Assembly (NCBI RefSeq): GCF_024453815.1 | Contig: NZ_CP072934.1 | Coordinates: forward strand, 1,798,001 to 1,862,000 | From: Corynebacterium pseudogenitalium | GTDB lineage: Bacteria; Actinomycetota; Actinomycetes; Mycobacteriales; Mycobacteriaceae | DNA length: 64,000 nt | Direction of reading: 5' to 3' | Shown: one piece after another, positions 14,380 through 57,522 of the stretch | Position numbering within the stretch: position 1 is the first letter of the stretch | Layout of the letters: each line of letters begins with the position of its first letter | Made by a program: the position numbers and the translations under genes | Notes under the pieces: generated by a model | What the model was told of the DNA's origin: nothing | The model's input: the letters and a program-made list of their open reading frames with translations, nothing else | The model's database searches: none

Positions 14380-14895
14380 CACCATTCGCTGATTCCGCGC
14401 CGCGGACACTCGGCTTGCCACACCCTGTCCGCGGCAGCACGTTCACCAGCCGTTTGAGAAAACCAACCGCTTAATCTGTCCGCCCCACGGACACGCAACC
14501 GATGATGCCTCAACCCGGAAAAACTGTCCGCCCCGCGGACAACCCGCATGCCACACCCTGTCCGCGGCACCCCTCCCACCTTGCGGATTGAGCAGAACCA
14601 ACCACTTACCCTGTCCGCCCCGCGGACACGCACCCGATGATGCCTCAACCCGGAAAAACTGTCCGCCACGCGGACAACCCGCATGCCACACCCTGTCCGC
14701 GGCACCCCTCCCACCTTGCGGATTGAGCAGAACCAACCACTTGCCCTGTCCGCCCCGCGGACACGCACCCGATGATGCCTCAACCCGGAAAAACTGTCCG
14801 CCCCGCGGACACCCTGACCGCACTCTGTCCGCGGCAGCCCTCTCACCAGCAGCTCCAGAAAACCCACCACCAATAAGTGTCCGCCGCGCGGACAC
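14380..14895. repeat. Array A of 17-bp palindromes (TGTCCGC-NNN-GCGGACA) with a 135-bp tandem unit
   Basis: At least eight full or near-full palindromes with 7-bp arms and a 3-nt spacer occur, e.g. at 14477, 14525, 14612, 14660, 14747, 14795 and 14878, plus half-elements TGTCCGCGGC near 14426, 14560, 14695 and 14825. A longer unit repeats in tandem: copies begin at 14476, 14611 and 14746 (135 bp apart), the third diverging after about 70 bp. Each unit carries two palindromes and one half-element. Apparent open frames on both strands here (rich in CPPRGH, RGADR) are by-products of the repeats. Confidence 0.9.
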
Positions 14896-14935
14896 CCAAC
14901 GCAGAGGGTCCGTCGCGAAAAACGCCACGGTGGAT

Positions 14936-15498
14936 TTACGAGTCTGATTCAGCAGCGCGGCGCTGACGCTGTAGCTTCCCGTGTGCACGGGCGATGCGGT
15001 AGAAAGTCCGCAAGCTCGCGAGCTGCAACCCGCTGTCTTGCGCCTTCTGATAGATGGCGTCCGCGCTCAGGTCGGGGTGGGCGTCGAAAAGATCGAGAAT
15101 CTGTTGTACATCTGAATCCGGAATACGTGGGATGTTTCGTTCGCGGTGAGGGATCGGATTTTCCTTTTTGGGCCTCGGGTTGGTCTGGTAATAGCGCCTC
15201 GAGCGTGAGATCTTCAAAATTTTGCAGGCGCGACTCATAGAATGCCCGACGCCCATGAGTAGATCCAGGAACTCGTTTTCTTGACGTACTCCTTCCTCGT
15301 ACCGCTTCGTTTCTTCGGGGCTTAGAATTTTTCCGCCGCGTCGGAGGTCCCGCCATGTTGCTTTGGCAGAGACCCCATAGCTTTTCCCAGGACATCGCTA
15401 GTGTCCTTCCACAGCTTGGCTTCTTTGCGCAGTCGAGCATTTTCTCGTTTCAGCGCCTCGTATTCTTTGCGTGGCATCGTTACTTCGTCGTTGCTCAT
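14936..15498 (-). pseudogene. IS3-like transposase remnant (OrfA-like leucine zipper plus truncated OrfB)
   Basis: A 58-codon frame (15322-15498) encodes a coiled-coil segment LKRENARLRKEAKLWK like the zipper at the end of IS3-type OrfA, but lacks the usual N-terminal helix-turn-helix. It ends at TAA just after an A5 run; in the -1 frame reading continues as KILSPEETKRYEEGVRQ ... MSRACKILKISRSRRYY ... SLRTFYRIARAHGKLQRQRR to 14936. That section matches the N-terminal HTH part of IS3-type OrfB. The DDE catalytic core is missing, so it cannot transpose. The break lies next to palindrome array A. Confidence 0.6.
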
Positions 15499-15564
15499 GG
15501 TTTTCCTTTCGCTTAGGGCCTAGCCAAGATATTGCCACACAGTTAAGGGCAAACCCCCAGGCGC

Positions 15565-15570
15565 TACGCT
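15565..15570 (+). promoter_or_regulatory. -10 hexamer of the deo regulator
   Basis: TACGCT ends 7 nt before the ATG at 15578, with no ribosome site between, indicating a leaderless mRNA. Confidence 0.5.
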
Positions 15571-15577
15571 GTAGTGC

Positions 15578-16522
15578 ATGGACACACGTGATCGGGATGC
15601 GCTGACGGCTGCCAAGTTGTATTACCGCTCGGAGCTGAGTCAGGCGGAGGTTGCTGCGGAGATGGGCTGCTCCCGTCCTACGGTGGCGAAGCTTCTGCAG
15701 CACGCGAAGGACCGTGGCTACGTCACTATTGAGGTACACGACCCGCAGGAGGCGGACGAGATCCTGATCGAGGATCTCACCTCCCGGTACACGCTGGAGG
15801 GTGTGCGGATTGTTCACCCGGCGAACCCATCTGCAGCGATCATGGAGGATCTTGGGGTAGCGGGCGCGCGCTACCTGGAGTCGATGCCGTTGGATGGCCT
15901 TTCGGTGGGGGTGTCCTGGGGAAAAACGCTGCTCAACATTGCGCGGAATCTACGATCGACGAACATGCGGGCGCGCCAGATTGTGCAATTGAAAGGTGGG
16001 TCGTCGCGTTCCAACCTGGCAACGAATGACTTTGAGACGATCACCGGTTTCTGCACCGCGTTCAACGCGCCCGCGTTAACGCTCCCACTGCCTGTCATTT
16101 TTGAGCGAGTGGAAACTAAGGAGATCGTGGAGCAGGATTCCCATATTGCGGACGTACTGCAGCAGGGGCGGGAGACCGACGTGGCGGTGTTCACGGTGGG
16201 TTCTGTGCGAAAGCAGAGCTTGCTGATGAATCTGGGGTACCTGTCTGAGGAGATGTCGCGGGAGCTGCTCGGGGTTGCGGTGGGGGATGCTTGTTCGCGG
16301 TTCTACACGCGGGAGGGGGATGTGGCGTCGAAAAGAATTGATGATCTGACGGTGGGCATTGAGCTTGACGAGCTGCGGGCGAGACCACGTCGAGTGCTGG
16401 TAGCTGGGGGTTTGTATAAAGCTGAGGCGATTGAGACGGCGCTGTGGATGGGGCTGGCCAGTGATTTGGTGATTGATCAGCCGACGGCGGTTCGGGTGCT
16501 GGAGATTGCGAAAACTCGCTAA
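15578..16522 (+). CDS. SorC/DeoR-family transcriptional regulator of the deo operon
   Basis: A 314-residue regulator. Residues about 12-50 are the helix-turn-helix (LYYRSELSQAEVAAEMGCSRPTVAKLLQHA). The rest is a sugar-phosphate-binding domain of the SorC family (GVSWGKTLLNIARNL, GDACSRFYTREGDVAS, VLVAGGLYKAEAIETALWMGLASDLVIDQ). The position immediately upstream of deoD-deoC suggests it represses the deo genes and responds to deoxyribose 5-phosphate, as B. subtilis DeoR does. The inducer is inference. A 34-bp inverted repeat lies between its stop and deoD. Confidence 0.9.
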   Translation: MDTRDRDALTAAKLYYRSELSQAEVAAEMGCSRPTVAKLLQHAKDRGYVTIEVHDPQEADEILIEDLTSRYTLEGVRIVHPANPSAAIMEDLGVAGARYLESMPLDGLSVGVSWGKTLLNIARNLRSTNMRARQIVQLKGGSSRSNLATNDFETITGFCTAFNAPALTLPLPVIFERVETKEIVEQDSHIADVLQQGRETDVAVFTVGSVRKQSLLMNLGYLSEEMSRELLGVAVGDACSRFYTREGDVASKRIDDLTVGIELDELRARPRRVLVAGGLYKAEAIETALWMGLASDLVIDQPTAVRVLEIAKTR

Positions 16523-16568
16523 TTGACGCCCCTTCTCCCCCATCTGGGGTGTATCGCACCCCCAATCA

Positions 16569-16602
16569 GAACATTTGCAAACTTTAATATTGCCATATGT
16601 TC
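16569..16602. promoter_or_regulatory. Candidate operator of the deo regulator
   Basis: An imperfect inverted repeat: GAACAT at 16569-16574 and ATGTTC at 16597-16602, with inner GCAA at 16577-16580 and TTGC at 16590-16593, in the AT-rich gap just upstream of deoD. Size and symmetry fit a SorC-family operator; binding by the adjacent regulator is inferred. Confidence 0.5.
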
Positions 16603-16660
16603 CTAGCGGTCTTAGAGTGGACACCGAAAGGTCAACCAGATACTGCAAAAGGAGTTGCAC

Positions 16661-17380
16661 ATGTCCACCCCGACCGTCTCCACCCCGCACATCGTCCCAA
16701 CCGGACCTATCGCTGAAACCGTCCTCATGCCGGGCGACCCACTGCGCGCGAAGTTCATCGCAGAGACCTACCTGGAAAACCCAGTCCAGTTCAACGCCGT
16801 GCGCAACATGCTCGGCTACACCGGCACCTACCAAGGCCACGAAGTTTCCGTGATGGGCTCCGGCATGGGCATTCCGTCCATCAGCCTCTACGCCTACGAG
16901 CTCATTCACTTCTTCGGCGTAAAGAAGCTCATCCGCGTCGGCTCCTGCGCATGCTTCCAGCCTGACATGAAGCTCTTCGACATCATCGTCGCCTCCTCCG
17001 CATCCACGGACTCGCACTTCATCGAGCAGTACGACCTGCCGGGCACCTACGCCCCGACCGCGTCCTGGAAGCTACTTGAGGCGACCTACAAGGAGTCGCA
17101 GAAGCAGGGCGTCGACATCCATGTGGGCAACATCTTGTCCTCCGACGTCTTCTACAACTTCAAGGACGACGTCAACGACCGCTGGGCGAAGATGGGCGTA
17201 CTCGGCGTCGAGATGGAATCCGCCGGCCTCTACGCCGTCGCCGCCGAGGCAGGCGTTGACGCGATGGGCATCTTCACCGTGTCCGACGTCATCGGCTCCG
17301 GCGAGAAGGCTTCCGCTGAGGAGCGTCAGAGCGCGTTTACCCAGATGATGGAGCTGGCGCTTCCGCTGGCCGCCGTCTAA
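16661..17380 (+). CDS. deoD: Purine-nucleoside phosphorylase, DeoD type
   Basis: A 239-residue hexameric-type phosphorylase cleaving purine (deoxy)ribonucleosides to base and (deoxy)ribose 1-phosphate. Seen: phosphate-binding GDPLRAKFIAE, GSGMGIPSISLYAYEL, RVGSCACF, substrate loop VEMESAGLYAVAA, and the catalytic Asp in TVSDVIGSGEK. ATG 16661 is chosen because AGGAG lies 6 nt upstream; a TTG two codons earlier is not needed. First enzyme gene of the deo operon, 138 nt after the regulator gene, followed by the permease 36 nt later. Confidence 0.95.
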   Translation: MSTPTVSTPHIVPTGPIAETVLMPGDPLRAKFIAETYLENPVQFNAVRNMLGYTGTYQGHEVSVMGSGMGIPSISLYAYELIHFFGVKKLIRVGSCACFQPDMKLFDIIVASSASTDSHFIEQYDLPGTYAPTASWKLLEATYKESQKQGVDIHVGNILSSDVFYNFKDDVNDRWAKMGVLGVEMESAGLYAVAAEAGVDAMGIFTVSDVIGSGEKASAEERQSAFTQMMELALPLAAV

Positions 17381-17416
17381 CCCGCAACCCATCCCACACG
17401 TTTGAAGGAACTCACC

Positions 17417-18781
17417 ATGACATCTCAAACAGTTCAAAAGGCGCTCAACCCGAAGCGGGCCGTGCCGATCATCCTGTTTACCTTCGTGTTCTCACTGATC
17501 ATCGATAACGGTTTCAAGTTCATGACCGACTCGATGGGTGAGGCACTGAATCTGTCCCTCAACGAGGTCAGCTTGCAGGCCTCGCTTGCTGGCGTGATCA
17601 TCGGCATCGGCGCGGTGGTGTACGCGGCGCTGGCTGACGTGGTGAGCATCCGCAAGCTGCTGATGGTCGGCATCACGCTGACACTGGTCGGTTCGGTCAT
17701 CGGCTACCTCGGCCAAAACGTGTGGGGGCTGGTGCTGGTCGGCCGCGTGGTGCAGACCACCGGCCTCGCTGCGGCGGAGACGCTCTACGTCATCTACGTG
17801 ACCAAGCACCTCAGCGAGAAGGATCAGAAGACCTACCTTGGCTTTTCTACCTCCGCGTTCCAGGGCGCAACGCTCTTCGGTGCACTGACGTCCGGGTACA
17901 TCGCCACACATATCTCGTGGACCGCGATGTTCTTGATCCCGCTCATCCTGGTCTTCGCCGTCCCGGTCATCATGAAGACGGTCCCGGAGGAGGCCTCCCT
18001 GGAGTCGGGCCACGTCGACTGGCTCGGGCTCTTCCTCATCGCTGTGCTGGCCACGAGCGCCATCATGTTCATGCAGGCCTTCCAGTTCCTGTGGCTCATT
18101 CCGCTCGCACTCGCGCTCATCGCGTTCATCGCGCACGTGAAGAAGGGCAAGCGCCCGCTGGTCAACCCGGAGTTCTTCCAGAACCGCGCTTACGTCACCG
18201 CCATCGTGCTGGTCGCGATTGTCTACTCGGTGCAGCTCGGCTACCTGGTGCTCTTCCCCGCAATGGCGAAGGCCGTCCACGGGCTCAGCGCTGACGACGC
18301 CTCCCTGCTGCTCATCCCGGGCTACACCGGCGCCGTCATCGTCGGCGCGCTCTCAGGCAAGATCGGCAAGTTCTTGCCGACGCGCCCCGCGATCTTCACC
18401 GCACTCGCCTCCATCACCATCGCGTTGCTGATCCTCGCAGTCGGGATGGAAGCCAGCCCGTGGGTGTTCATGCTTTCCTCCCTGCTCTTCGCCTGCGGTT
18501 TCGCCCTGCTGTACGCGCCACTGGTCGCGACGGCAATCGGCAACATCCCCGCTGCGAAGTCGGGTATCGCAATCGGTTTCTACAACCTCACAATCAACGT
18601 CGCCGTCCCGCTCGGCATCGCGTACAGCGCGAAGCTGGTGGATCTCGGCCTTGGGGTGCCAGGCTTCCTGCCACAAAACTCGGGCAGCTACCCCACCGTC
18701 ATGCTCATCCTGGCCATCATCGCAGTCGCCGGCACCGCGCTCTACGCAGCGCTCACCGCTCGCATGAAGCAACCGGCTTAA
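17417..18781 (+). CDS. MFS permease of the deo operon (putative nucleoside transporter)
   Basis: A 454-residue major facilitator with about 12 membrane segments, from FTFVFSLIIDNGFKFMTDSM to LILAIIAVAGTALYAALTARM. The ATG at 17417 follows GAAGGA at proper spacing. It resembles drug/proton antiporter-type MFS members rather than NupG or concentrative nucleoside transporters, so the substrate is assigned only by context: it sits between deoD and deoC, suggesting uptake of deoxynucleosides or deoxyribose. The next gene starts 36 nt downstream with AAGGAG. Confidence 0.82.
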   Translation: MTSQTVQKALNPKRAVPIILFTFVFSLIIDNGFKFMTDSMGEALNLSLNEVSLQASLAGVIIGIGAVVYAALADVVSIRKLLMVGITLTLVGSVIGYLGQNVWGLVLVGRVVQTTGLAAAETLYVIYVTKHLSEKDQKTYLGFSTSAFQGATLFGALTSGYIATHISWTAMFLIPLILVFAVPVIMKTVPEEASLESGHVDWLGLFLIAVLATSAIMFMQAFQFLWLIPLALALIAFIAHVKKGKRPLVNPEFFQNRAYVTAIVLVAIVYSVQLGYLVLFPAMAKAVHGLSADDASLLLIPGYTGAVIVGALSGKIGKFLPTRPAIFTALASITIALLILAVGMEASPWVFMLSSLLFACGFALLYAPLVATAIGNIPAAKSGIAIGFYNLTINVAVPLGIAYSAKLVDLGLGVPGFLPQNSGSYPTVMLILAIIAVAGTALYAALTARMKQPA

Positions 18782-18817
18782 CCTGCACACTTTCTACACA
18801 TCAAGGAGTTTTTCAAC

Positions 18818-19468
18818 ATGCTTACTCGCCACAATGTCGCCCAGATGATCGACCACACGCTGCTCAAGCCGGAGGCCACCCACGAGGACGTCGCCAAGCT
18901 TATCGACGAAGCTTCGCACCTCGGCACGTTCTCCGTCTGCGTCTCCCCATCCATGCTGCCAATCGAGACCCCAGCTGACCTGAAGGTCGCAGTGGTGTGT
19001 GGCTTCCCGTCCGGCGCGGTCCCAACTGAGGCAAAGGCAGCCGATGCCGCGCACAGCGTCGCAAATGGCGCGGACGAGGTTGACATGGTCATCGACCTGG
19101 GTGCCGCCAAGGAAGGCAAGTGGGACGTCGTACGCGACGACATCGCCGCGGTAAAGAAGGCGTGCGGCGACAAGCTGCTCAAGGTCATCATCGAGTCCGC
19201 CGTCCTCACGGACGACGAGATCGTCGCAGCGTGCAAGGCTTCCATGGAGGCCGGTGCCGACTACGTGAAGACCTCGACAGGCTTCCACCCCGCCGGTGGT
19301 GCCTCCGCGCACGCCGTGAAGCTGATGCGTGAGACCGTCGGCGACAAGCTCGGTGTGAAGGCTTCCGGCGGCATCCGCGACGCCGCCACCGCGAAGGAAA
19401 TGATTGAGGCTGGCGCGTCCCGCCTGGGCCTGTCCAGCTCCGCTGCCGTGCTGGAAGGGTGGAAGTAA
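18818..19468 (+). CDS. deoC: Deoxyribose-phosphate aldolase
   Basis: A 216-residue class I aldolase splitting 2-deoxyribose 5-phosphate into acetaldehyde and glyceraldehyde 3-phosphate. The Schiff-base lysine is Lys151 in [11 protein letters not shown], helped by Lys181 in VKASGGIRD; the TIM barrel starts with [11 protein letters not shown] and has [14 protein letters not shown] is placed well before ATG 18818. Two bases separate its stop from the following mutase, so the pair is probably co-translated. Confidence 0.96.
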
Positions 19469-19470
19469 CA

Positions 19471-21138: not shown

Positions 21139-21189
21139 CTGCGCTATACTATCGAAGGCTTGGGCGCCGATTTGTCGACGCCCAGCTCA

Positions 21190-21263
21190 GCCTCCATAGC
21201 TCAGTGGATTAGAGCAACCGGCTTCTACCCGGTGTGTCGCGGGTTCGAATCCTGCTGGGGGCG
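21190..21263 (+). tRNA. tRNA-Arg (anticodon UCU)
   Basis: Full cloverleaf: acceptor GCCTCCA with TGGGGGC (one T-G pair), D stem GCTC/GAGC, anticodon stem ACCGG/CCGGT around loop CTTCTAC (anticodon TCT), T stem GCGGG/CCTGC with TTCGAAT. CCA is not encoded. Confidence 0.95.
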
Positions 21264-21273
21264 CTTTTCGTTT

Positions 21274-21319
21274 ACCCCCGCTGCCTGGCGTTTTGCCTGG
21301 TGGTGGGGGTGTTTTTGTT
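21274..21319 (+). terminator. Hairpin after tRNA-Arg
   Basis: CCCCC and GGGGG arms with an inner TGGC/GCC(T) pairing, followed by GTTTTTG. It probably ends the tRNA transcript. Confidence 0.5.
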
Positions 21320-21349
21320 GGTATGGTGGGTTTGAAGAAAGGACCCACA

Positions 21350-21475
21350 ATGAGATTCACACTCCTTGGAGCCGGAACCGGCATCATCACCACCCTCGCA
21401 GGCGCCAACCCTCTTTTCGGTCTCGCCTTCCTTGCCGTCGGTTACGGCATCGACAAGAACAAAAAGAAGGCATAG
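21350..21475 (+). CDS. Small hydrophobic protein, 41 residues
   Basis: MRFTLLGAGTGIITTL then a Gly/Ala-rich hydrophobic run and the basic tail DKNKKKA. GAAGAAAGGA precedes ATG 21350 at good spacing, supporting translation. Looks like a single-helix membrane peptide with a cytoplasmic basic end. Function unknown; it stands alone between tRNA-Arg and a toxin-antitoxin pair. Confidence 0.55.
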   Translation: MRFTLLGAGTGIITTLAGANPLFGLAFLAVGYGIDKNKKKA

Positions 21476-21718
21476 CCGTGCAGCCCATCATTATCGATGA
21501 GTAGACCGGCCGCGCCTATGGCGCGTTCCGGAATGTGCCGAGCACTGTGGCGTCTCCCCTGTCACGTGGCGCGCCAGCCGCCCAGGCAGCCCCGTAAAGA
21601 ACAGCCCTCAAGCAAAACAACTTCACTCGTAGCACACTCGTATGTGCTGGTAGGATAGCGGTCCATTAGGTTCGAGTACCGTTGGGTTCCTGAAGCCTCT
21701 CTAAAGTTGGTGATCACT

Positions 21719-22291: not shown

Positions 22292-22300
22292 TCAACGCAA

Positions 22301-22807: not shown

Positions 22808-22833
22808 CATCGCCCCCGATGTACCATGGCGCC

Positions 22834-30627: not shown

Positions 30628-30634
30628 CCTCTTG

Positions 30635-30715
<81 letters not shown>

Positions 30716-30800: not shown

Positions 30801-31154
30801 GTGTCCGCCGCGCGGACACGCGATCCACTCCACCGGTCAGCGGCAAGACATCAAATGTTTCCGCCGCGCGGATACACAACCCCATTTCATCTTCCGCCCC
30901 GCGGACTCTTCTACCTCACTGTCACTGTCCGCCGCGCGGACTCTCGATCCCCTGCATCTGTCCGCGGCGACACGCTTACCAGCACCAACCTTCCAGCATC
31001 GCATCAGGGGTGTCCGCCGCGCGGACACACAACCCCCTTTTCATCTTCCACCCCGCGGACACAGGATCCACTCCCCCGTTGTCCGCCGCGCGGACACGCG
31101 ATCTGCTCCACCTGTCAGCGGCAAGACGCCAAATGTGTCCGCCGCGCGGACACA
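30801..31154. repeat. Array B of 17-bp palindromes (TGTCCGC-NNN-GCGGACA)
   Basis: About eight copies, four of them exact with spacer CGC (30802, 31011, 31081 in part, 31136) and others with one arm degraded (30858, 30892, 30926, 31051). Half-elements TGTCCGCGGCGA (30959) and the related TGTCAGCGGCAAGAC (31114) occur as in array A. Spacings are irregular. There is a partial larger duplication: CACACAACCCCNTTTCATCTTCC recurs after the copies at 30858 and 31011. No gene is credible here; open frames rich in RAADT/CPPRG arise from the repeat. Confidence 0.88.
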
Positions 31155-31234: not shown

Positions 31235-31708
31235 GTGAGCGAGCAAAACAGTTTCCCAGGTGAAGAGGGCGCGCCGAAGCGTCGGCACGTTCGGGTTCGC
31301 GCATGGCACGTCGTGTTGCTCATCGCCGCGGTGATTACGTGCTGTCTGCTGGCGTACTGGCAGTGGACTCGCTACCAGTCCGGGACGGGGACGTTCCAGA
31401 ACCTGGGGTATGCGTTGCAGTGGCCGTTCTTCGGTGCGTTTTTCGTCTACGCCTACAAGGCGGGGTTAAAGATGGAGAACGAAAAGATTGATGCGCTGAA
31501 CGCATCGGGGTCGATGGATGAGCTCTACGAGGCGGACCTTGCACGCTACGGTGCGGACGGCAGCCGTGATCCGGTGGAGATTGATGAGGATTTCCTGCCG
31601 GAGCGCCCTACTCTCGATGTGGAAGAATACAACTCGATGCTCGCACCACGCCGTCGTGGTTCGACGGAACCAAACAGCGAGCCGAAGAGCGAACCGAACA
31701 GAAAGTGA
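31235..31708 (+). CDS. Conserved actinobacterial membrane protein of unknown function
   Basis: A 157-residue protein with a basic N-terminus (KRRHVRVRAWHVV), two membrane helices (VLLIAAVITCCLLAYWQW and WPFFGAFFVYAYKAGL) and a long acidic cytoplasmic tail with a polar repeat-like end (EPNSEPKSEPNRK). The lead QWTRYQSGTGTFQNLGYALQWP is typical of a conserved family located next to DUF3817 in Mycobacteriales. Function unknown. The next gene starts 13 nt downstream. Confidence 0.85.
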   Translation: MSEQNSFPGEEGAPKRRHVRVRAWHVVLLIAAVITCCLLAYWQWTRYQSGTGTFQNLGYALQWPFFGAFFVYAYKAGLKMENEKIDALNASGSMDELYEADLARYGADGSRDPVEIDEDFLPERPTLDVEEYNSMLAPRRRGSTEPNSEPKSEPNRK

Positions 31709-38293: not shown

Positions 38294-40255
38294 GTGAGTG
38301 ACCAGCCTTTCGCCCAAACGACCGAAGACCTGCTCGCGGCCGCCGTCGCCGCCCTCGGTGGCGCAGAGCGCCCCGGGCAGGTCGCGATGGCGAAGGCCGT
38401 CACCAAAGCGATCGATGCCGGACGCCATCTCGCCGTGCAGGCTGGCACTGGCACCGGCAAGTCGCTCGCCTACCTCATCCCCGCGATTCGGCACGCGCAG
38501 CAGTCGGACAGCACCGTCGTCGTATCGACGGCCACCATCGCGCTGCAACGCCAGCTCGTCGAGCGCGACCTGCCCCGGCTCGCCGACGCCCTCGAGCCGC
38601 TTTTGGAGCGCCGCCCGACGTTCGCCATCCAGAAGGGCCGCAACAACTACGTTTGCCTGCACAAAATCGGGCTAGACGAGGAGACGCCGGAGGCGCTCAT
38701 CGAGGAAGACGACATTTCCTGGCTGGGCAAACACGTCAAGCGCGTCGCCGAGTGGGCACAGGACACCGAGACCGGCGACCGCGACGACCTCGAACCCGGC
38801 GTACCCGATTTGGCGTGGCGCCAGGTGTCCGTTACTTCCAACGAGTGCCTGGGAGCGAGCCGCTGCCCGCACGGCGACGAATGCTTCGCCGAGCTCGCAC
38901 GCGAGAAAACCCGCTCCGTCGACGTGGTGGTAACTAACCATGCGCTGCTAGCTATCGACGCCCTCGCAGACGTTGACGTACTGCCGGAGCACGACGTCGT
39001 CATCATCGACGAGGCCCACGAGCTCGACGGGCGCATCACCTCCGTAGCAACCAACGAGCTCTCCGCCCGCGCGCTGACGCTCGCTGCCCGGCGTGCGGGC
39101 AAGCTCGGTGCGGATAAGGCGATCCTCGAAGACGTCGCCGACGACTTCAGCGCGGCGCTCGCTCTGGAGGAGCCCGGCCGCTGGGAACGCATCTCCGATC
39201 CCGCGCGCGGCGCCTTCACCGGTGTCCGCGATGCACTGTGGCGCACGCGCAACGCCATCGCGGACGCCCCCGAGGGCGAGGCCGCGAACGACCCGGAAAC
39301 CGCCGCCGAGCGCGGCAACCTCAAGAACCACCTCGAGGACTTGCACGACGCCACCGTCCGCATCCTCGAAGTTTTCGACGAGGACGACCCAGCCAAGCAC
39401 TACGACGTGGTGTGGCTGACACGCTCCGACAAGTACGACGACTCCGTGGCCGTCGCGCCACTCTCCGTCGCCGCCCTGCTGCGGGAGAAGCTCTTCGGCG
39501 AACACACCGTGGTGCTCACCTCCGCCACGTTGACGGTCGGCGGGAACTTCAACGCCATGGCGGCCTCCTGGGGTCTTCCGGACAAGACATGGGACAGCCT
39601 CGACGCCGGCACCCCCTTCGACCCGGCGAAGTCCGGCATCCTCTACACCGCCAAGCACCTGCCTGCACCTGGACGCGACGGCCTGTCGGACGCGACGCTC
39701 GACGAGATCGCCGAGCTCATCACCGCCGCTGGCGGCCGGACGCTCGGTTTGTTCTCTTCGCGCCGCGCCGCCCAGCAGGCCGCGGAAGCGATGCGCACAC
39801 GCCTCCCCTTCGACATCATGTTGCAGGGCGAAGACTCCACCGGCGCGCTCGTGGACAAGTTCGCCCGCAACGAGAACAGCTGCCTGTTCGGCACGCTGAC
39901 CCTCTGGCAGGGTGTCGACGTCCCCGGCCGCTCGCTGTCCCTCGTCATCATCGACCGCATCCCGTTCCCCCGCCCCGACGATCCGCTGTTGCAGGCACGT
40001 GCCAACGCCGCGGATGCTGCCGGGCGCTCCGGGTTCATGGAGGTCTCCGCGACCCACGCCGCCCTCCTCATGGCGCAGGGAGCGGGCCGCCTGCTGCGCT
40101 CGGTCAGTGACCGCGGCGTCGTCGCTGTGCTCGATAACCGCTTAGTCACGAAGCGCTACGGCTCATTCCTACGCCGCAGCCTCCCAGCCTTCTGGGAGAC
40201 CACCAACCCCGATACCGTCAGAGGCGCGCTGCAACGCTTAGTGGCGGCTCGCTAA
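38294..40255 (+). CDS. dinG: ATP-dependent DNA helicase DinG/XPD-type
   Basis: A 653-residue superfamily 2 helicase. Walker A GTGTGKS with Lys56, DEAH box D239-E-A-H242, and four cysteines around NNYVC, NECLGASRC and DECFAE, which bind the FeS cluster. C-terminal motifs TLWQGVDVPG and QGAGRLLRS (motif VI). GTG 38294 is preceded by TAGACT (38280-38285), 8 nt. Homologue Rv1329c lies next to pncB likewise. The stop overlaps the end of the convergent PTH2 gene by 38 bp. Confidence 0.94.
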   Translation: MSDQPFAQTTEDLLAAAVAALGGAERPGQVAMAKAVTKAIDAGRHLAVQAGTGTGKSLAYLIPAIRHAQQSDSTVVVSTATIALQRQLVERDLPRLADALEPLLERRPTFAIQKGRNNYVCLHKIGLDEETPEALIEEDDISWLGKHVKRVAEWAQDTETGDRDDLEPGVPDLAWRQVSVTSNECLGASRCPHGDECFAELAREKTRSVDVVVTNHALLAIDALADVDVLPEHDVVIIDEAHELDGRITSVATNELSARALTLAARRAGKLGADKAILEDVADDFSAALALEEPGRWERISDPARGAFTGVRDALWRTRNAIADAPEGEAANDPETAAERGNLKNHLEDLHDATVRILEVFDEDDPAKHYDVVWLTRSDKYDDSVAVAPLSVAALLREKLFGEHTVVLTSATLTVGGNFNAMAASWGLPDKTWDSLDAGTPFDPAKSGILYTAKHLPAPGRDGLSDATLDEIAELITAAGGRTLGLFSSRRAAQQAAEAMRTRLPFDIMLQGEDSTGALVDKFARNENSCLFGTLTLWQGVDVPGRSLSLVIIDRIPFPRPDDPLLQARANAADAAGRSGFMEVSATHAALLMAQGAGRLLRSVSDRGVVAVLDNRLVTKRYGSFLRRSLPAFWETTNPDTVRGALQRLVAAR

Positions 40256-40970
40256 ACGCCAGCGCCGTCACCGAGCCTGGCGCGACCTCCGTGAACCCTG
40301 CGTCGGCGACCACCACGCCGTCGTGTTCGCGCGCGTACGCCAAGCACTCCGCAAACACGCCGCTGTCCGCCTCGCGGACACTCAGCGGGAAGCCGTCCTC
40401 GGCCCACTCCTGCACCCACTCGAGCGGGCGCTGCGCAGCAAGCAGCATTGAGGCATGCCCCACCTGTGCGGCCGCCTTCCCCGCAGACATCTCGAGCCCA
40501 GCATCCACCACAATCACAGGTGTCGACGCCCCCACCTGCCCCTCCACCGGCTCCATCGGCAGGTCCGTCCCCTTGATCTGCAGCTTCGATACCTCGTGCG
40601 GCACGTCGCACACCGCGGATGGCACAAACGCCCGCACCGACCCGACCGTCACTCCGGGCACCTCCTGCACGTCCAACCAAGCCTTGTTTCGCGCACGGCG
40701 AGTCACCTTGCGGATGCGGTGGTCGTACCAGCGCTGCAGGTGCTCCCGCCACGGCCCGGGCTCGCCCGCTTGTTCCGCGAGGCAGACGGCGACGGTGGCG
40801 CGGGCGGCGTCGACTAGCACCGCGTTGCGTGGTGGCGGGTCCTGCTTCGGCAGGTTGATCACCAGCTGCATCGCCTGCACCGTCTCGGGGTCGCGCGGGT
40901 CCTCGGTGCGCTGCCGGTAGTCAGCGCTGGTGCGCTCGTGCAGGAGCTGCCAAGCTAACTGTCTGCTCAT
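40218..40970 (-). CDS. Aminoacyl-tRNA hydrolase domain (PTH2) protein with N-terminal extension
   Basis: A 250-residue protein. The C-terminal part (about 145-250) has the Pth2 core: VIVVDAGLEMSAGKAAAQVGHASMLLAAQ, then GVVVADAGFTEVAPGSVT. Pth2 enzymes release peptides from tRNA and are rare as free-standing enzymes in bacteria. The N-terminal 130 residues (LAWQLLHERTSADYRQR, HRIRKVTRRARNKAWL) have no recognised domain. The ATG overlaps the serB stop by 4 bp, so it is translated with serB. A TGTCCGC-CTC-GCGGACA palindrome lies inside at 40364-40380. Confidence 0.8.
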   Translation of the reverse strand: MSRQLAWQLLHERTSADYRQRTEDPRDPETVQAMQLVINLPKQDPPPRNAVLVDAARATVAVCLAEQAGEPGPWREHLQRWYDHRIRKVTRRARNKAWLDVQEVPGVTVGSVRAFVPSAVCDVPHEVSKLQIKGTDLPMEPVEGQVGASTPVIVVDAGLEMSAGKAAAQVGHASMLLAAQRPLEWVQEWAEDGFPLSVREADSGVFAECLAYAREHDGVVVADAGFTEVAPGSVTALAFSEPPLSVAARL

Positions 40971-44469: not shown

Positions 44470-45600
<1,131 letters not shown>

Positions 45601-49510: not shown

Positions 49511-49594
49511 AACCTGTGGGCTCTCTCTCTACATAAAATGAAGACTATTTCGGGAGTTTTCCCCGCGCCGTCTTGATCGGCGCTACAAGAGAAG

Positions 49595-49642: not shown

Positions 49643-49736
49643 TTACACGCGTGGTATTCCCAGCACGGCTCCCACCGCGGGTCCACATGTAGCCTAGACT
49701 ATGAAAAATCACTTCCGATGACCTGAAAGCCCACCA

Positions 49737-50600
49737 ATGTTTCGCTCCCACCCCAGCCCGCAGCAACGCTACAGCCACATGGCACGGCGCGCCGCGAGCG
49801 AGGTCATTGGCAGCTATTCGACGAGCTTCGGCGCCGCCACGCGACTACTTCCCGAGCCGCAGCGAACCGACATCCGCAACCTCTACGCGGTGGTGCGCAT
49901 CGCCGACGAAATTGTGGACGGCGCCACCCCCTCCCCCGAGCGCGCGGTAGCCCTCAAGGACTACGAGCAGTGCGTCCGCAGCGCCACAGCAACCACGTTC
50001 CACACCGACCCGATCCTGCACGCTTTCGCCGATACCGCGCGCCGCTGCAACTTCGATGACGCCCACCTCGCTGCGTTCTTCACCTCGATGCGCCACGACG
50101 TAACCGGCGAGGCGCACACGGAGGAGTCCGTCGAGCGATACATCTACGGCTCCGCCGAGGTCATCGGTTTGCTGTGCGTGGATGTCTTCTTCGGGGGCCG
50201 ACGCCCTCCCCAGGCCGAGTACAGCAAGCTGCAGGAAGGTGCGCGGGCGCTGGGGGCCGCGTTTCAGAAGGTGAACTTCCTGCGCGACTACGCCGACGAC
50301 ACCAACCGGCTCGCCCGTAACTACTTCCCGCAAGCTTCTTACCCGCTAACCAAGGCCGGCCGAGACGCGATCATCGCGGACATCCGCCACGACTTCGACG
50401 CCGCGTGGTCCGCCATCCCCGCGCTGCCCAAGCGCTGCGGTGTCGCCGTCGCGGTAGCGGCGAACCTGTTCGAAGCGCTCACCGACTTGCTCGCGGACAC
50501 GCCACCAGAAGCCATCCTCACCCAACGGGTCCGGGTGTCCGCGCCGCGGAAAGCAGCCATCATCGCGCGGACGGCGGCGACGGGAAGGAGGCTGCAGTGA
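49737..50600 (+). CDS. crtB: Phytoene synthase
   Basis: A 287-residue squalene/phytoene synthase joining two geranylgeranyl diphosphates to phytoene. Asp-rich motifs: RIADEIVDG and KVNFLRDYADDTNRLARNYFP; substrate signature GSYSTSFGAATRLLPE. The C-terminal basic stretch RVRVSAPRKAAI contains a palindrome-like TGTCCGC-GCC-GCGGAAA at 50536. ATG 49737 lies near no strong ribosome site. GTGA overlap at 50597-50600 couples it to crtI. Confidence 0.93.
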   Translation: MFRSHPSPQQRYSHMARRAASEVIGSYSTSFGAATRLLPEPQRTDIRNLYAVVRIADEIVDGATPSPERAVALKDYEQCVRSATATTFHTDPILHAFADTARRCNFDDAHLAAFFTSMRHDVTGEAHTEESVERYIYGSAEVIGLLCVDVFFGGRRPPQAEYSKLQEGARALGAAFQKVNFLRDYADDTNRLARNYFPQASYPLTKAGRDAIIADIRHDFDAAWSAIPALPKRCGVAVAVAANLFEALTDLLADTPPEAILTQRVRVSAPRKAAIIARTAATGRRLQ

Positions 50601-52147: not shown

Positions 52148-52166
52148 GAAGCTCGTGAAGATTCTG

Positions 52167-52172
52167 TACATT
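52167..52172 (+). promoter_or_regulatory. -10 hexamer of the surface protease-like gene
   Basis: TACATT ends 6 nt before ATG 52179; no Shine-Dalgarno. Confidence 0.4.
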
Positions 52173-52178
52173 TAATTC

Positions 52179-55100
52179 ATGCGAAGCTTCCGACCTGGTA
52201 AGACGCTTATCGCCCTTTTCACAGCCTTCGCGATGAGCACCACTGTCTTCTCCCCGCCCGACGCCACAGCCCAAACGACAAGTCAGTGGGTGCCCGATCA
52301 GCATGAGGAACTGTTCGAGCAGCGGGATGAGCTCTCATTCTCAAAGGGTGGCGCTGAGTACTTTTGCCAAGTTGCCCACATCGCCGACGGGCGCGTGTAC
52401 ACCGATGCGCTTTGCGGCGAAGGGCATTTCTTGTACTACCGCGACTCCGAGGGCTCCATACACTACTTCGAGGACAGGCAGACCGATTTTTCTCGCAACA
52501 AAGATCTCTTCCTGAATCGCTTCGCATCCTACGCGATCCCGGACTCGCTGCTTCCACAAGTCGGTGAGTCAGCTGAGCCAGTTCACGGTTCGTACCTCTC
52601 GGCCGGGGATACCGTGACCGTTCACGGCCCACGGGAAGACTACGATGCAACGATTGAGAACACCACCGATGGTTTCCTGGCGATTACGCTTCCGAGCCAT
52701 GCGTATTTGACACATGGCGCCCCAGTTTCAGTCGGCGGCCACTACCTTGGGATGTATGAGGGGGTCTTTGACAACAACGACCACAGACAGGGACTCGTCC
52801 TCCTCGCAGACCCAGAAGTTCCTCCGACAAGCGAACCGAACAAAGTGGCGTTACTCCTCGAGCGTGAATCCATGCTGTCATATGCTCCGGGCGAAGTAAG
52901 CACGATTAACCAGGGTGACAAGATTTTTAACAACGGTCATCGTTGCACCGTCGGATACATCGATAAGTCCAACAGCCGTATTTTCTTAGCTGGTCACTGC
53001 AGCGATGGCGGCCCTCTCTACTTCACCGACACACAAAAAAGGAACTATTACCTGGGCACGATGGTGACTGAGTTCGACTTCGAGGGAAGTCTCACCAACA
53101 GCACCATGAGCAAAGACTGGGGCTACATCGATATCCCCGAACACCGCTCGGCGTTACTTGGAGAGAATGCCTACACCTCCGACAGCGTCCTCCTACCGTC
53201 GATGCTTCGCGTCGGACAGATGGTGTACGGCTTCGGTCAAACAACCGGCCACGTGATGGAGAACTACGTCATGGGCGTGATTAATAACGTCATCCTCCTC
53301 ACACAACAAAACCCGATGCATGAGGGAGATTCCGGTGGGCCGAACTGGATCGTCGATGACGAAGGAAACCGGCACTTTATCGGGGTCAACTCCGGGAGTG
53401 ACGATGTCCCAGAAGGTCAAGCCCACAAATACGGTATTGCTGTCGGCTGGCACGAAACTCCGAACAGCGACGAGGAAGTCCAATACACAAATCTCGCACT
53501 ACAGCAGTGGGACGCTTACCAAAAGGCACAGAAAGAGGCCGAGAACCCCGTCGCGGTCAACCAGGGCGACACCGTGGGGCTCGACGACAATGACCGCGAC
53601 CTCTTCCTCGACCAGGAGTGCACAGCGAAATACATCGATCACGTCCACCAGCGGATCTACACCAGCCCCGCGTGCACCGGGCCGGGCAGGGCGCGCGGAG
53701 TTTCTACGACATACGGGTGGCCCAAGCACTGGGTACTGGCCGAAATCGGCACATTTTTCGACGCCCATCTGCCCTACATCCAGGCCCCAGATGGCACGCG
53801 GTTAGGCGAAAACCCTGATGCACCTGGGGAGCTCCTTTCGACCGACCAGGTACACCTTGGTGACACGGCTAGCATCGACTGGCGTTCATTGACGGTGGCA
53901 GGCACAGTCGGCGACGCGATCCTACTTCTCCCCTACGGGGATTTTGAGCCGGAGGTGAACACACCAGTCACCATCGGCGACAACGTTGCCGGCCTTGTTT
54001 CCGGGATCTACTACGACGAGAACGGCAACGTGAAAGGCATTGAAGTTCAGAGCCTTCTCGAGACTAATCCGATTGAGCTTCCAGAGGGCTGGCAGGAAAA
54101 CCTTCTCTACGAATACGCGAAGGCAACTGACAAGACCGCTCCCGTGGTTGAGGACGTCGAAAAGAAAGAATTCGACTCCGATGCCGAGATTGAGCCCTTC
54201 GAATTCACCATCACGGACGAGTACAACGAGCTGACTGTCGAGGTAACCGACCTGCCAGAAGGTCTGTATGCGGACATTCAGTACGACGAGCCACGGCTCC
54301 GCGCCACCGTCACTGTTCGAGGGACGCCGACGAAGCCAGGGGAACAAGATGCAACCGTGACGGCACGCGACGCACGTGGGAACGAAAAATCGAGCAGTAT
54401 CAGTTTCCAGATTAACGACGCCACTGCGCCCGTCATCGATACCACTGCGCTGGTCCTGGAGGCTGGCGAGTACGCCGACCTCAAGATTCCGGTCACTGAT
54501 AACAGGGACAGTTTCCTTACTGTGACAGTCAGTGCACTCCCTGATGGCCTCGTGTCATTTAGGGAGTACATCTACGGCACGACCACCGTCGTCGGAACGC
54601 ACGAGCTTCAGGTAACCGCCACGGACGCCGCTGGCAATACTGCAACGGAAACAGTTCAGCTCGAGGTGCGCGACACGAAGAAGCCAGCCATCAACATGCG
54701 GAGCAGCGCTCGCTGGGAAGCCAATTCAGAATTCAATGACTCCATCAGCATTGAGGTTGACGACGCAACCCCAGTCAGTGTGCGCGTCGACGGCCTCCCC
54801 CGAGGCTTGTCTTATGACGACACCAACGGCGTCATCGATGGCGTCACTGACGCGGTCGGCTCGCACTCTGTCACCGTCATCGCTACTGATACCAGTGGCA
54901 ATACATCCGAGGCGGAGCTCGAGCTGGTGGTAGAGGACACCACTGCCCCAACAGTGCAAAACGCCGAGTTTGAGCACGAAATTGGTACACCGTTCTCGCA
55001 TGTTGTTGATGCAACAGACGGCGTAGGGGTGGAACGGGTTACCGTTTCGGGTCTCCCACACGGTCTGCGTTTCGACGAAAGCTCCCGCACCATCAGCGGT

Positions 55101-55796
55101 ACACCTTCAGCGCTGGGCAACTTCCAGACTTCCGTCGAGGCGTTTGATGCGGCTGGAAATACGGGCCAGGGCGCAATTGGATTCCGCGTGGTGGACACCG
55201 TCCGGCCTCGCATCTTGGTGGACCACAACCCGCCTGCGGCAACCAAGTTCGACTTGCCTATCCGAGTCGAGGACGCAACCAAGACCGCTTTGTCCGTGAC
55301 CGGCCTGCCAGCCGGACTGCGGCATAAAGGGAACCGGATTGTTGGTTCGACCAAAGATTCGGGCACACACCGTGTAGTCATCACCGCCACGGATGAAGCT
55401 GGCAATCAAGCTTCCGAGACAATCACGCTGTCGGTGCCGAAGCCTCGCCCAACCAAGACAACAACCGCTTCGAAGCCTTCTACATCAGCTCCACAGAAGC
55501 CGAAAGAGACGACTCCCGCTGCAGAGCCTCCTCGCCAGACACCGGTTCCGACTAAGTCAACAGGCAAGACAACATCGTCTGCAGCACCGTCTGAGAAAGC
55601 TACGGCGACTACCGCACAATCCGAGCCTCCTACCTCAGATCCAACGCAGCCTCAGGTTGCAGAGGACGGCAGCGCTTCCGGTTCCTCGAAGGGTGGAATC
55701 GCCGCACTGGTAATTCTGGGCATCATCGCGTTGGTTGGTGGCATCGTCGCTACGAATCCTCAGCTCATGAAGCAGATTCAGTCGATGCTGCCGTAA
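52179..55796 (+). CDS. Surface protein with three trypsin-like modules and Ig-like repeats
   Basis: A 1205-residue exported protein. Signal peptide 1-31 (cleavage after DATA). Three trypsin-like modules: about 45-205, 240-420 and 465-635. Each begins with a Cys pair around the catalytic-His site (Cys63/79, Cys256/274, Cys481/499). Only module 2 keeps a full triad: His273 (AGHCSDG), Asp313 (KDWGYID), Ser385 (GDSGGP). In modules 1 and 3 the His is Leu78 and Ala498 and the Ser is missing. About five Ig-like/He_PIG domains follow (645-1105; DLPEGL, ALPDGL, GLPRGLSYD, GLPHGLRFD, GLPAGLRH), then a Thr/Pro/Ser-rich linker and a membrane helix (about 1172-1191) with a short basic tail. No LPXTG; anchored by the helix. 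Confidence 0.82.
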   Translation: MRSFRPGKTLIALFTAFAMSTTVFSPPDATAQTTSQWVPDQHEELFEQRDELSFSKGGAEYFCQVAHIADGRVYTDALCGEGHFLYYRDSEGSIHYFEDRQTDFSRNKDLFLNRFASYAIPDSLLPQVGESAEPVHGSYLSAGDTVTVHGPREDYDATIENTTDGFLAITLPSHAYLTHGAPVSVGGHYLGMYEGVFDNNDHRQGLVLLADPEVPPTSEPNKVALLLERESMLSYAPGEVSTINQGDKIFNNGHRCTVGYIDKSNSRIFLAGHCSDGGPLYFTDTQKRNYYLGTMVTEFDFEGSLTNSTMSKDWGYIDIPEHRSALLGENAYTSDSVLLPSMLRVGQMVYGFGQTTGHVMENYVMGVINNVILLTQQNPMHEGDSGGPNWIVDDEGNRHFIGVNSGSDDVPEGQAHKYGIAVGWHETPNSDEEVQYTNLALQQWDAYQKAQKEAENPVAVNQGDTVGLDDNDRDLFLDQECTAKYIDHVHQRIYTSPACTGPGRARGVSTTYGWPKHWVLAEIGTFFDAHLPYIQAPDGTRLGENPDAPGELLSTDQVHLGDTASIDWRSLTVAGTVGDAILLLPYGDFEPEVNTPVTIGDNVAGLVSGIYYDENGNVKGIEVQSLLETNPIELPEGWQENLLYEYAKATDKTAPVVEDVEKKEFDSDAEIEPFEFTITDEYNELTVEVTDLPEGLYADIQYDEPRLRATVTVRGTPTKPGEQDATVTARDARGNEKSSSISFQINDATAPVIDTTALVLEAGEYADLKIPVTDNRDSFLTVTVSALPDGLVSFREYIYGTTTVVGTHELQVTATDAAGNTATETVQLEVRDTKKPAINMRSSARWEANSEFNDSISIEVDDATPVSVRVDGLPRGLSYDDTNGVIDGVTDAVGSHSVTVIATDTSGNTSEAELELVVEDTTAPTVQNAEFEHEIGTPFSHVVDATDGVGVERVTVSGLPHGLRFDESSRTISGTPSALGNFQTSVEAFDAAGNTGQGAIGFRVVDTVRPRILVDHNPPAATKFDLPIRVEDATKTALSVTGLPAGLRHKGNRIVGSTKDSGTHRVVITATDEAGNQASETITLSVPKPRPTKTTTASKPSTSAPQKPKETTPAAEPPRQTPVPTKSTGKTTSSAAPSEKATATTAQSEPPTSDPTQPQVAEDGSASGSSKGGIAALVILGIIALVGGIVATNPQLMKQIQSMLP

Positions 55797-55814
55797 GAGG
55801 GCGCGCCGACGTGC

Positions 55815-57035
55815 TTAGACTTTTGGTGTGTCCCAGTCCCACGTCGGTGCGGCTTCATCCGCAAACGAATCCACACCCCACCCATCCAACTCAATCTCGG
55901 CAGCATCATCGCGATACCCCACCCGACCAGGCTCACACACCCACTGCTCACCACTGGCAAACCGGAAATACAACGTCGGACCAGGCTTGACCACACGGAT
56001 AAACCCATCCGTGACCAACGAATGACACCGCGAGCACAACGGCACCAAATTCTCCAAATCCGTGGTGCCGCCCTCGGCCCAATCCCGAATATGATGCATC
56101 TGTAAAAACCGCGTATGCCCACAGCCTGGCACCGCGCACTTATGCCCCCACATCCCTAGCAGCACCTGCACCTGCTTCGGGCTTGCCAAACGGCGTTTGC
56201 GCCCAAACCTAATCACCTGCCCCTGGGCGTCATAGAGCACACCCATCAAATCTGCATGATCTACCAAGTTGGCAAGCCGTGCGGCAGGCGCCGCCATGTG
56301 ATTCGGCAAAAATGCTCGCCCATCTGATGTCATATGCACCATCACCTGTGCCGCCGGCGCCATCGTGGCGTGTGTGGCGGCCCCGGTGCGCACCATGTGC
56401 ACCATCCCCATCAGTGATTGCAGCATCAACCGTGCCGGTGGCAGCCCGAAGGTCGAGCGCATCATCTGCGCATCCGCCTCATCCATCGCGTTGTCATCCG
56501 CATAGGCGTGTGCTCCTGCCCGCAGGGCTGCTTGAAAGGCCACACCGTCGGTAGCGTTCATGCAAAACCAGCCGCGTAGGTATTGGCCGTCTTCGCGGAT
56601 GGTCAGCCCGCAGTGTTCACCAGCATCCTGGGGTTGTTTGTCGGTGGGGGTTGCGCCTGCCAGGGCGTGTACGAGGCCTTGGTAGCCAGATTCGGCGGCT
56701 ATTTCTACGAGTTCGTGTTGGTTTGCCTCGGTGGCGTAGTCAAGCATGTAGCGCACACTGGTGTAGTCGATACTTCCTTGTCGCAGCGCGTCGAGGATGG
56801 TGGGAAAGCTTGTGAGTTTGCGTGCGACGGCGGCGTATTCGTAGGCGCGGGTGCGTTTCATTTTTAACACTCTGGCAAGCCATGCCCCGGTAGAAGCGCA
56901 GCCGTAGTGCTCGGCGAGGTTATGGGTGTCGAATTCGGCGATCGCGGTCAGTATTTCCGCGTGTGAGTATGCGAACAGGCGTGCGCTTTCAACGATGGTG
57001 TTGATGATGGTGTCGGCGTCGATGGTGGTGTGCAT
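55815..57035 (-). CDS. DUF222 / HNH endonuclease-domain protein (13E12 family)
   Basis: A 406-residue protein. The first ~250 residues are DUF222 (LAEHYGCASTGAWLARVLKMKRTRAYEYA ...). The C-terminal HNH nuclease fold is complete: CAVPGCGHTRFLQMHHIRDW, GGTTDLENLVPLCSRCHSLVT with the HH pair, Asn and Cys zinc ligands. This 13E12 family is multicopy in mycolate bacteria, and has mobile-element traits; native function unresolved. The start is close to palindrome array C (57121-57521), which lies upstream. Confidence 0.9.
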   Translation of the reverse strand: MHTTIDADTIINTIVESARLFAYSHAEILTAIAEFDTHNLAEHYGCASTGAWLARVLKMKRTRAYEYAAVARKLTSFPTILDALRQGSIDYTSVRYMLDYATEANQHELVEIAAESGYQGLVHALAGATPTDKQPQDAGEHCGLTIREDGQYLRGWFCMNATDGVAFQAALRAGAHAYADDNAMDEADAQMMRSTFGLPPARLMLQSLMGMVHMVRTGAATHATMAPAAQVMVHMTSDGRAFLPNHMAAPAARLANLVDHADLMGVLYDAQGQVIRFGRKRRLASPKQVQVLLGMWGHKCAVPGCGHTRFLQMHHIRDWAEGGTTDLENLVPLCSRCHSLVTDGFIRVVKPGPTLYFRFASGEQWVCEPGRVGYRDDAAEIELDGWGVDSFADEAAPTWDWDTPKV

Positions 57036-57120
57036 GGTTCCCCCTGGTGTCTTGGTTGTTTTTTAGTATACGTGTTCGAATGGTAGTGTCAAGAGGTTTA
57101 TCCAAATATTTGTTGATGGG

Positions 57121-57522
57121 TGTCCGCGCCGCGGACAGTGCGCGGGGTGCTTTGCGACGCCCGCCTTCGAGCACGGGTGTGTGGGTGGGTGTCCGCGCGG
57201 CGGACACCTTGATGCAATCGTTGGGGTCTTGAGCTGAACTCGCTCTGTCCGCGCCGCGGACTGTGAACAAGGCCGTCACAAAGGGCTCGAAGTGTCCGCG
57301 CCGCGGACAGCTCAAATCTCGACTCGCCCAATTGGCTTTCGCGCTCTGTCCGCGCCGCGGAATGCTACTGGAGTCGACTAAAGCTTCGTTGGAGTCCGCG
57401 CAGCGGACTGTGCGCGAGGTTGCTTTGCAATAACGGGTAAATTGTCCGCCCCGCGGAAACCTTACTTATTGAGAGGTGGGTTGAGCCAAGCTTCGCCAGC
57501 TGTTTGTCCGCCCCGCGGACAC
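57121..57522. repeat. Array C of 17-bp palindromes (TGTCCGC-NNN-GCGGACA)
   Basis: Eight copies at about 57121, 57190, 57246, 57293, 57347, 57393, 57443 and 57505. The spacers are GCC, GCG, GCA or CCC. Arms are exact in 57121, 57190, 57293 and 57505; the others have one or two changes (e.g. GCGGAAA at 57347 and 57443). Spacing ranges from about 46 to 69 bp. It fills the gap between the DUF222-HNH start and the lipoprotein stop, with no open gene. Confidence 0.88.

Follow-up and report, generated by a model that had tools for sequence, protein, structure and literature searches.

Palindrome arrays and adjoining DUF222-HNH genes in Corynebacterium pseudogenitalium and related bacteria

REP/RAYT (TnpA-REP) systems consist of dispersed palindromes with a cognate gene beside some of them and solo copies genome-wide. 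In mycobacteria, predicted LexA targets include REP13E12 (PMC4181829), and REP13E12 regions have been reported as gene-conversion hotspots without a defined biological function (PMC13061034), according to the consulted portions of these two sources. Here, we analyze a window of 64,000 nucleotides from Corynebacterium pseudogenitalium (contig NZ_CP072934.1, positions 1,798,001 to 1,862,000; coordinates below are those of the window unless they are given for the genome or for a locus), in which the palindrome TGTCCGCNNNGCGGACA recurs in three arrays, A, B and C. Judged from sequence comparison, the DUF222-HNH gene beside array C probably encodes the protein that has this palindrome as its cognate binding site, a reading based on genetic linkage, a lineage-by-lineage match of gene and site, residue covariation and conservation of the palindrome arms. 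No description of such a gene/palindrome pairing was found in the consulted portion of the literature on DUF222, REP13E12/13E12 and corynebacterial palindromic repeats, which is not proof of its absence.

The palindrome arrays and the adjoining gene

With up to three mismatches allowed, the window contains 36 palindrome sites (16 exact, 5 with one mismatch, 6 with two and 9 with three), compared with 7.45 on average, and at most 15, in shuffled sequence. The whole genome of 2,389,603 bases holds 32 exact palindromes and none of the reversed pattern, and the core TCCGCNNNGCGGA is present 113 times and its reversed control 14 times. A preliminary description of the window had reported a recurrent palindrome in three arrays plus single copies; this observation is real, and the counts in both window and genome are far above chance. 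The copies are strongly clustered, in arrays A, B and C as well as elsewhere in the genome, where there is a large array at 49.0–50.1 kb, another at 2368.7–2369.0 kb, and clusters within genes at 9.3–9.6, 92.3–93.7, 1755.2–1755.9 and 1961–1962 kb. Across the genus, the exact palindrome is found in 12 of 201 genomes. Only 5 of these have at least five copies (32, 26, 19, 17 and 5) and the remaining 7 have one or two each; presence of the exact palindrome in numbers is therefore a property of few genomes.

Each array in the window comprises eight sites, defined in one strain with up to three mismatches. Array C (57121–57521) lies directly upstream of the DUF222-HNH gene (55815–57035, minus strand), which is the only match to the DUF222-HNH profile in the window. 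A second copy of the gene in the genome (2367377–2368594, 97 per cent identical) also has an array, D, directly upstream. The same arrangement is seen at gene copies of strains NML98-0116, NML130628 and NML140438, and in the first two an array occupies the same place as array C. A relative in C. stercoris, 39 per cent identical, is preceded by two copies of CTCCGC-AAT-GCGGAG. No DUF222-HNH gene adjoins array A (14392–14894), which is upstream of a CtaG/CopD gene (12207–14231, minus strand), or array B (30802–31152), which is situated between a tRNA-Leu gene (30634–30715, minus strand) and a small open frame at 31235 (plus strand). Array A is partly a 135-bp tandem repeat, and its copies are therefore not all independent. 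Half-elements, previously noticed beside two of the arrays, are indeed present: TGTCCGCGGC occurs four times in array A (plus strand, 14426–14435, with the others starting at 14559, 14694 and 14826) and once in array B (30959–30968, plus strand). The site positions likewise bear out the irregular spacing that had been noted as unlike clustered regularly interspaced short palindromic repeats (CRISPR). We rejected a CRISPR array on account of this spacing, of the sequence between palindromes that arrays C and D have in common, and of the lack of cas domains among the scanned neighboring proteins.

The arms of the palindrome are better conserved than its surroundings. In a comparison of arrays A–D with strain NML98-0116 (treated as Corynebacterium CDC group F-1 in the consulted part of PMC5289680), differences were found at 14 of 430 arm positions, 13 of 93 positions of the 3-nt spacers and 187 of 1572 remaining positions (Fisher's test; P = 7e-9 for arms versus the rest and P = 2e-4 for arms versus spacers), although definition of the sites in one strain with up to three mismatches somewhat favors the arms. 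The conserved arms and variable spacer of the preliminary description are thus recovered between strains.

The gene beside array C encodes a protein of 406 amino acids that matches PF02720 (32.9 bits; cut-off 24.4) and PF01844 (43.1 bits; cut-off 21.4), with DUF222 followed by HNH, which places it among the DUF222-HNH (13E12-like) proteins. Within the C-terminal HNH nuclease domain (residues about 285–370), C300, C305, H314, H315, C334 and H338 are invariant and N329 is nearly so in 29 aligned sequences; the catalytic HNH residues and the zinc cysteines are among them and are intact in this protein. The N-terminus (residues about 20–130) is predicted, from AlphaFold2 models and fold comparison, to form a ParB/Noc-like helix-turn-helix (HTH) domain. 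A first model, built from 14 sequences, had low overall confidence (predicted local distance difference test score [pLDDT] of 60.5), and in a second, built from 50 sequences, model quality was good for the N-terminal domain, fair for the HNH domain and poor for the stretch between them. The fold matches to ParB cover only part of the ParB chains, and a profile search against solved structures gave matches in the HNH region and no ParB chain. In Pfam, no domain other than DUF222 and HNH was detected in the protein, and an N-terminal CTPase domain of ParB type likewise gave no Pfam match.

The palindromes are intergenic only in part. The window arrays lie outside likely genes, but two of the single sites (40364 and 50536) are inside open frames, and there are further in-frame copies elsewhere in the genome. 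Exact or degenerate palindromes are present in the repeat stalks of four secreted or surface proteins (L017:5080-7821, L089:3373-6264, L090:4818-7790 and L018:9213-11621, all on the minus strand; here and below, compared loci and genomes carry L and G numbers), two of which have Rib/YPDG domains. Read in frame, the palindrome gives SAxRT, with nearly fixed codons where they were measured (L017). One surface protein has 15 SA[APTS]RT copies, as would be expected if the repeat were selected as a peptide of surface proteins and had spilled into intergenic DNA. The location of the window arrays outside likely genes argues against this idea, as do the codons: in the surface protein at 92 kb, TCC, CGG and ACA are used in 15/15, 14/15 and 15/15 cases inside the motif, compared with 26/76, 3/25 and 21/120 outside it, counts in which a recent tandem duplication would reduce the number of independent in-frame copies. 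The nearly fixed codons point to the DNA, and not the peptide alone, being kept, and we regard selection at the protein level as barely credible.

Correspondence of site and protein across genomes

Profile matches to the 406-residue protein occur in 171 of 201 genomes of the family sample, some of them to the HNH part only; in a search of 151 genomes for DUF222-HNH relatives, 138 had a match and 13 had none at E ≤ 0.001. We compared 30 Corynebacterium loci, one from each of the 30 best-matching genomes, with the window gene and its same-species copy included; start codons, here and at the other compared loci, were assigned by rule, not always with certainty (least so at L140 and L151). A repeated palindrome is present within 500 bp upstream at 17 loci and downstream at 1, versus 3 of 300 shuffles, and the core TCCGCNNNGCGGA is found upstream at 17, downstream at 1 and inside the gene at 1. 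When the two same-species loci are left out, 15 of 28 loci have an upstream repeated palindrome and 15 of 28 an upstream core. Combined, the two marks cover 20 of the 30 loci. Palindromes with arms of at least 8 bases, repeated or not, are a weaker mark (17/30 upstream, 8/30 downstream and 16/300 in shuffles). Six further loci (L049, L064, L065, L067, L070 and L071) have one or two palindromes of similar form, and no fitting upstream palindrome was seen at 4 of the 30 (L052, L060, L068 and L069). The palindromes are lineage-specific, and include AGTCCGC-AAT-GCGGACT, ACTATGC-AGG-GCATAGT, TATGC-ATT-GCATA, GATGC-ACGT-GCATC and GTGCGC-AGCT-GCGCAC, among others; the half-sites found within the genus end in GC beside a gap of 3 or 4 nt.

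Outside Corynebacterium, 20 loci were chosen by hand, one per genome, from the better-scoring matches with some skipped, and L147 was excluded from the counts as one of its flanks is short. Among the other 19, palindromes with arms of at least 8 bases occur upstream at 13 and downstream at 4 (18 of 190 shuffles). Repeated palindromes are rare there (3/19 upstream versus 0 downstream), and typical sites are CGTCCCCGCGGGGACG and GCGTTCCGCGGAACGC, which have no gap. At 20 distant DUF222 loci, drawn from only 8 genomes, repeated palindromes were absent (0/20) and long palindromes were found upstream at 4 and downstream at 3. As far as tested, the upstream palindrome is a feature of one branch of the DUF222-HNH proteins.

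The correspondence extends to whole genomes. Four palindrome types were scanned in the same set of 20 genomes. Specifically, TATGCATTGCATA is present only in G067 (21 sites on the plus strand and 25 on the minus), GATGCACGTGCATC only in G133 (64 sites), and ACTATGCNNNGCATA only in G067, G133, G114 and G035. The fourth type, TCCGCAATGCGGA, occurs in 10 of the 20, with at least four copies in G042, G059, G021, G020, G121, G078 and G067 and a single copy in each of G000, G050 and G062. Five genomes without a DUF222-HNH match (G013, G017, G062, G077 and G148) lack all four types, except for one copy of TCCGCAATGCGGA in G062. Within this set, high copy number was found only where a gene with the same palindrome type upstream is present.

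Additionally, the site type covaries with the protein. Of 77 loci, 60 were given a site label (27 of the labels set by hand) and 17 were dropped; 45 proteins with a half-site class entered the count, from which L095 was excluded for an array displaced from its gene, and collapsing near-identical N-termini reduces the 45 to 36. Residue 69, in the second helix of the predicted HTH (residues 61–74), is Arg in 13 of 13 proteins with TATGC or GATGC half-sites and in 0 of 32 with TCCGC, TGCGC or TCTGC half-sites; the column was picked after inspection, and the labels against which it was set (12 of the 45 assigned by hand) derive from the upstream sequence. In no other of the 406 columns do the two site classes lack a residue in common. 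On the tree, site class and Arg69 change four times each, and the three well-supported independent pairs are all concordant (P = 0.25; significance is out of reach with three pairs). A plain hairpin was rejected, as it leaves the covariation with the protein unexplained. The suggestion that the palindrome is a protein-binding or nuclease site is supported by the conserved arms, by the sites upstream of DUF222-HNH genes and by the covariation; the partnership with DUF222-HNH proteins, one of three candidates put forward before, is likewise supported by upstream sites in many species and by sites that change with the protein.

Spread, regulation and possible role of the arrays

Judged from their listed positions, 44 of the 64 sites in G133 and 15 of the 46 in G067 are remote from the genes, and the DUF222-HNH profile had no match within about 3 kb on each side of 20 solo-array loci (L113–L132, from G133, G067, G059, G020 and G042). 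Such REP-like scatter could reflect a REP or miniature inverted-repeat transposable element moved by an unrelated transposase, with the DUF222-HNH genes near it through hitch-hiking. Eight solo arrays of G133 (L114–L121) fit this explanation, being alike in 28 of 28 pairs once the palindromes are masked, and the earlier suggestion of a mobile repeat holds in part, in that the G133 arrays behave as dispersed repeats. However, neither the gene-side array L102 of the same genome nor the solo array L113 matches these eight after masking, so what L102 and the solo arrays share is the palindrome itself; moreover, lineage by lineage, the DUF222-HNH gene is accompanied by a different palindrome, with which residue 69 covaries. 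We consider hitch-hiking very unlikely. In the window's genome, 2 of 15 array pairs share masked sequence (A with the 49-kb array over 24 bases, and C with D over 104).

Some solo arrays are composite, with two DUF222-HNH site types alternating (L113–L121 in G133; L122–L123 in G067). The 127-bp array unit of G133 has two palindromes, GATGCACGTGCATC and ACTATGC-GCG-GCATA, the latter being the type upstream of another DUF222-HNH gene of that genome (L099), and TATGC-type and TCCGC-type palindromes alternate in the two solo arrays of G067. The second palindrome of the G133 unit is better kept than the remainder of the unit (mean column frequency of 0.91 in its arms versus 0.78, over 31 units), which we count as weak because the segment that holds it ranks only 10 of 96. 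Composite arrays fit docking or target sites better than passive debris. They also agree, as does the predicted fold of the DNA-binding domain, with ParB/Noc-like chromosome organization, in which the arrays would be docking sites for a protein that gathers, shapes or resolves the chromosome. A role of this kind had been raised before, and the idea holds in part, in that the modeled domain resembles such proteins. Against it stand the lack of Pfam domains besides DUF222 and HNH, the 13 of 151 genomes without a relative, the wide variation in copy number and position, and a nuclease domain that would have no clear role; we judge it improbable.

The gene and array copies look more like products of copying by recombination than of classical transposition. 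Several copies in G067 have the array, the gene and a variable length of 3' flank in common, and three in G133 are 95–98 per cent identical across the shared stretch. In the group F-1 units, the shared part begins at about the first palindrome on the left and ends a few bases from the stop codon on the right. Two F-1 units compared by eye have no shared inverted ends, and insertion sequence ends were rejected accordingly; terminators were also rejected, as the palindromes, inspected by eye and not by a terminator scan, are not followed by T-runs. No exact empty insertion site of L097 was found in 31 genomes (G067 and 30 relatives); its left flank is conserved, in G009 and G002 up to the array, with no right flank beside it. 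Relatives are nearly absent from plasmid records (1 of 72,556) and phage records (1 partial match in 50,697).

On the reading that the DUF222-HNH protein has the palindrome as its cognate site, the ParB/Noc-like HTH domain, as a dimer, would read two inverted 7-nt half-sites ending in GC across the 3-nt gap, and the HNH domain would supply nuclease activity; both dimeric binding and nuclease activity are inferred. The gene and its upstream array would form one unit, and arrays elsewhere in the chromosome would serve as extra sites. The nuclease might nick or cut bound palindromes or the DNA close to them; with another array as the source for repair, arrays and gene would then be copied, as a homing-like selfish pair. 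This is the mechanism that we prefer, a realistic possibility if one somewhat short of even.

SOS-like boxes (up to two mismatches to the box consensus, within 250 bp upstream) precede 12/30, 10/20 and 13/20 loci in three sets, with 0, 1 and 1 downstream; none precedes the window gene or its same-species copy (L043 and L044). These boxes are compatible with a different explanation, in which the upstream palindromes are operators by which the protein regulates its own gene and the distant arrays are decoys; a nuclease induced by DNA damage would be kept on these until required against other DNA, and the sites would be bound and not cut. Intact chromosomal sites would be easier to explain in that way, and beyond Corynebacterium there is mostly just one site, near the start. 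However, the nearest palindrome of the F-1 gene is upstream of the likely promoter and not over it (TTGACA-N16-TATACT, minus strand, 57065–57092, between array C and the start codon, judged by the promoter consensus). Dozens of sites far from the gene are more than an operator needs, and PADLOC defence models gave 0 families at E ≤ 0.001. Autoregulation with sequestration is, in our assessment, somewhat unlikely.

Other observations concern the surroundings of the sites. One exact single palindrome (40364–40380) is inside a PTH2-like open frame (40218–40970, minus strand) and has syntenic copies with the same CTC/GAG spacer in G050 and G194; G178 also has a copy with this spacer. Another (45509–45525) is near the 5' end of an open frame (44470–45570, minus strand) that is presumably ribonucleotide-reductase-like, and a third, with one mismatch (50536–50552), is inside the open frame 49737–50600. 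By eye, a second motif around GGCGTCGA stands between or beside palindromes (at 14265 and 31186, in array C and in the G133 arrays) and recurs in arrays of different species; overlapping short frames right of array A (14949–15440) could be the remains of a transposase-type gene. An AbiEi-type regulator and type I restriction-modification genes flank the large solo array at 49–50 kb (L016:3825-9041). The locus of the second gene copy (L019, 14 kb) has four copies of the parS-like sequence GTTTCACGTGAAAC, the nearest 298 bases past the gene end, and L112 has one 574 bases upstream of the gene. In NML98-0116, both ends of the chromosome record NZ_CP017639.1 fall within a DUF222-HNH gene and lack its middle part, and contigs of draft NML140438 (NZ_MLCQ01000008 and NZ_MLCQ01000010) break inside two gene copies, as expected of near-identical repeats. 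A short DUF222-HNH-like remnant with a stop (G178:C1:1702473-1702718), about 2.4 kb from palindromes at 1705064 and 1705144, is perhaps a relic of a lost gene.

Comparison with described systems

More broadly, and tentatively, one DUF222-HNH branch could comprise unrecognized site-specific nucleases, often DNA-damage-inducible, that fuse a ParB/Noc-type reader to an HNH cutter. Lineages would write their own palindrome arrays, some composite for two paralogues and some within surface-protein genes; gene conversion driven by programmed nicking would spread the pair and make the tagged loci more diverse, and the mycobacterial REP13E12 hotspots would be a branch of the same system. If true, this would connect gene conversion and the spread of repeats in actinobacteria to a nuclease family associated with SOS. 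With a cognate site readable from the genome, such genes become a testable system: the target follows from the gene, and any genome can be mapped for it. The system would also offer, in a ParB-like fold, a natural series of switches in protein–DNA specificity in which a single residue follows the identity of the half-site. That related bacteria have the same kind of gene with palindromes of their own suggests an overlooked family of matched nuclease–site pairs spread through chromosomes.

Compared with ParB/parS and Noc/NBS (KorB operator proteins), the protein described here has an HNH nuclease domain and no other Pfam domain besides DUF222, its site sequence is lineage-specific, the arrays adjoin the gene, and copy number varies. 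McrA-type and IscB HNH nucleases differ from it in that Pfam detects no modification-sensing or RNA-guided domain here, and the IscB model scores 36.4 bits, far under its cut-off of 175. HNH homing endonucleases are similar in being predicted sequence-specific nuclease genes, here in multiple copies that share 3' flanks of varying extent; unlike them, the system has intact sites beside the gene, and no intron, intein or interrupted site was seen. As in the mycobacterial REP13E12/13E12 family, DUF222-HNH genes occur in several copies. The REP13E12 literature, in its consulted portion, does not mention a palindromic site (the string 'palindrom' is absent from the main text of PMC13061034), and repeated sites were lacking at the distant DUF222 loci in our comparison, which did not extend to M. 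tuberculosis itself. As in REP/RAYT systems, dispersed palindromes have a cognate gene beside some of them and solo copies elsewhere; unlike in those systems, the gene combines a predicted HTH domain with an HNH domain, the palindromes are on its upstream side, and both the gene beside array C and the second copy beside array D encode DUF222-HNH proteins and not a Y1 (HUH) transposase.

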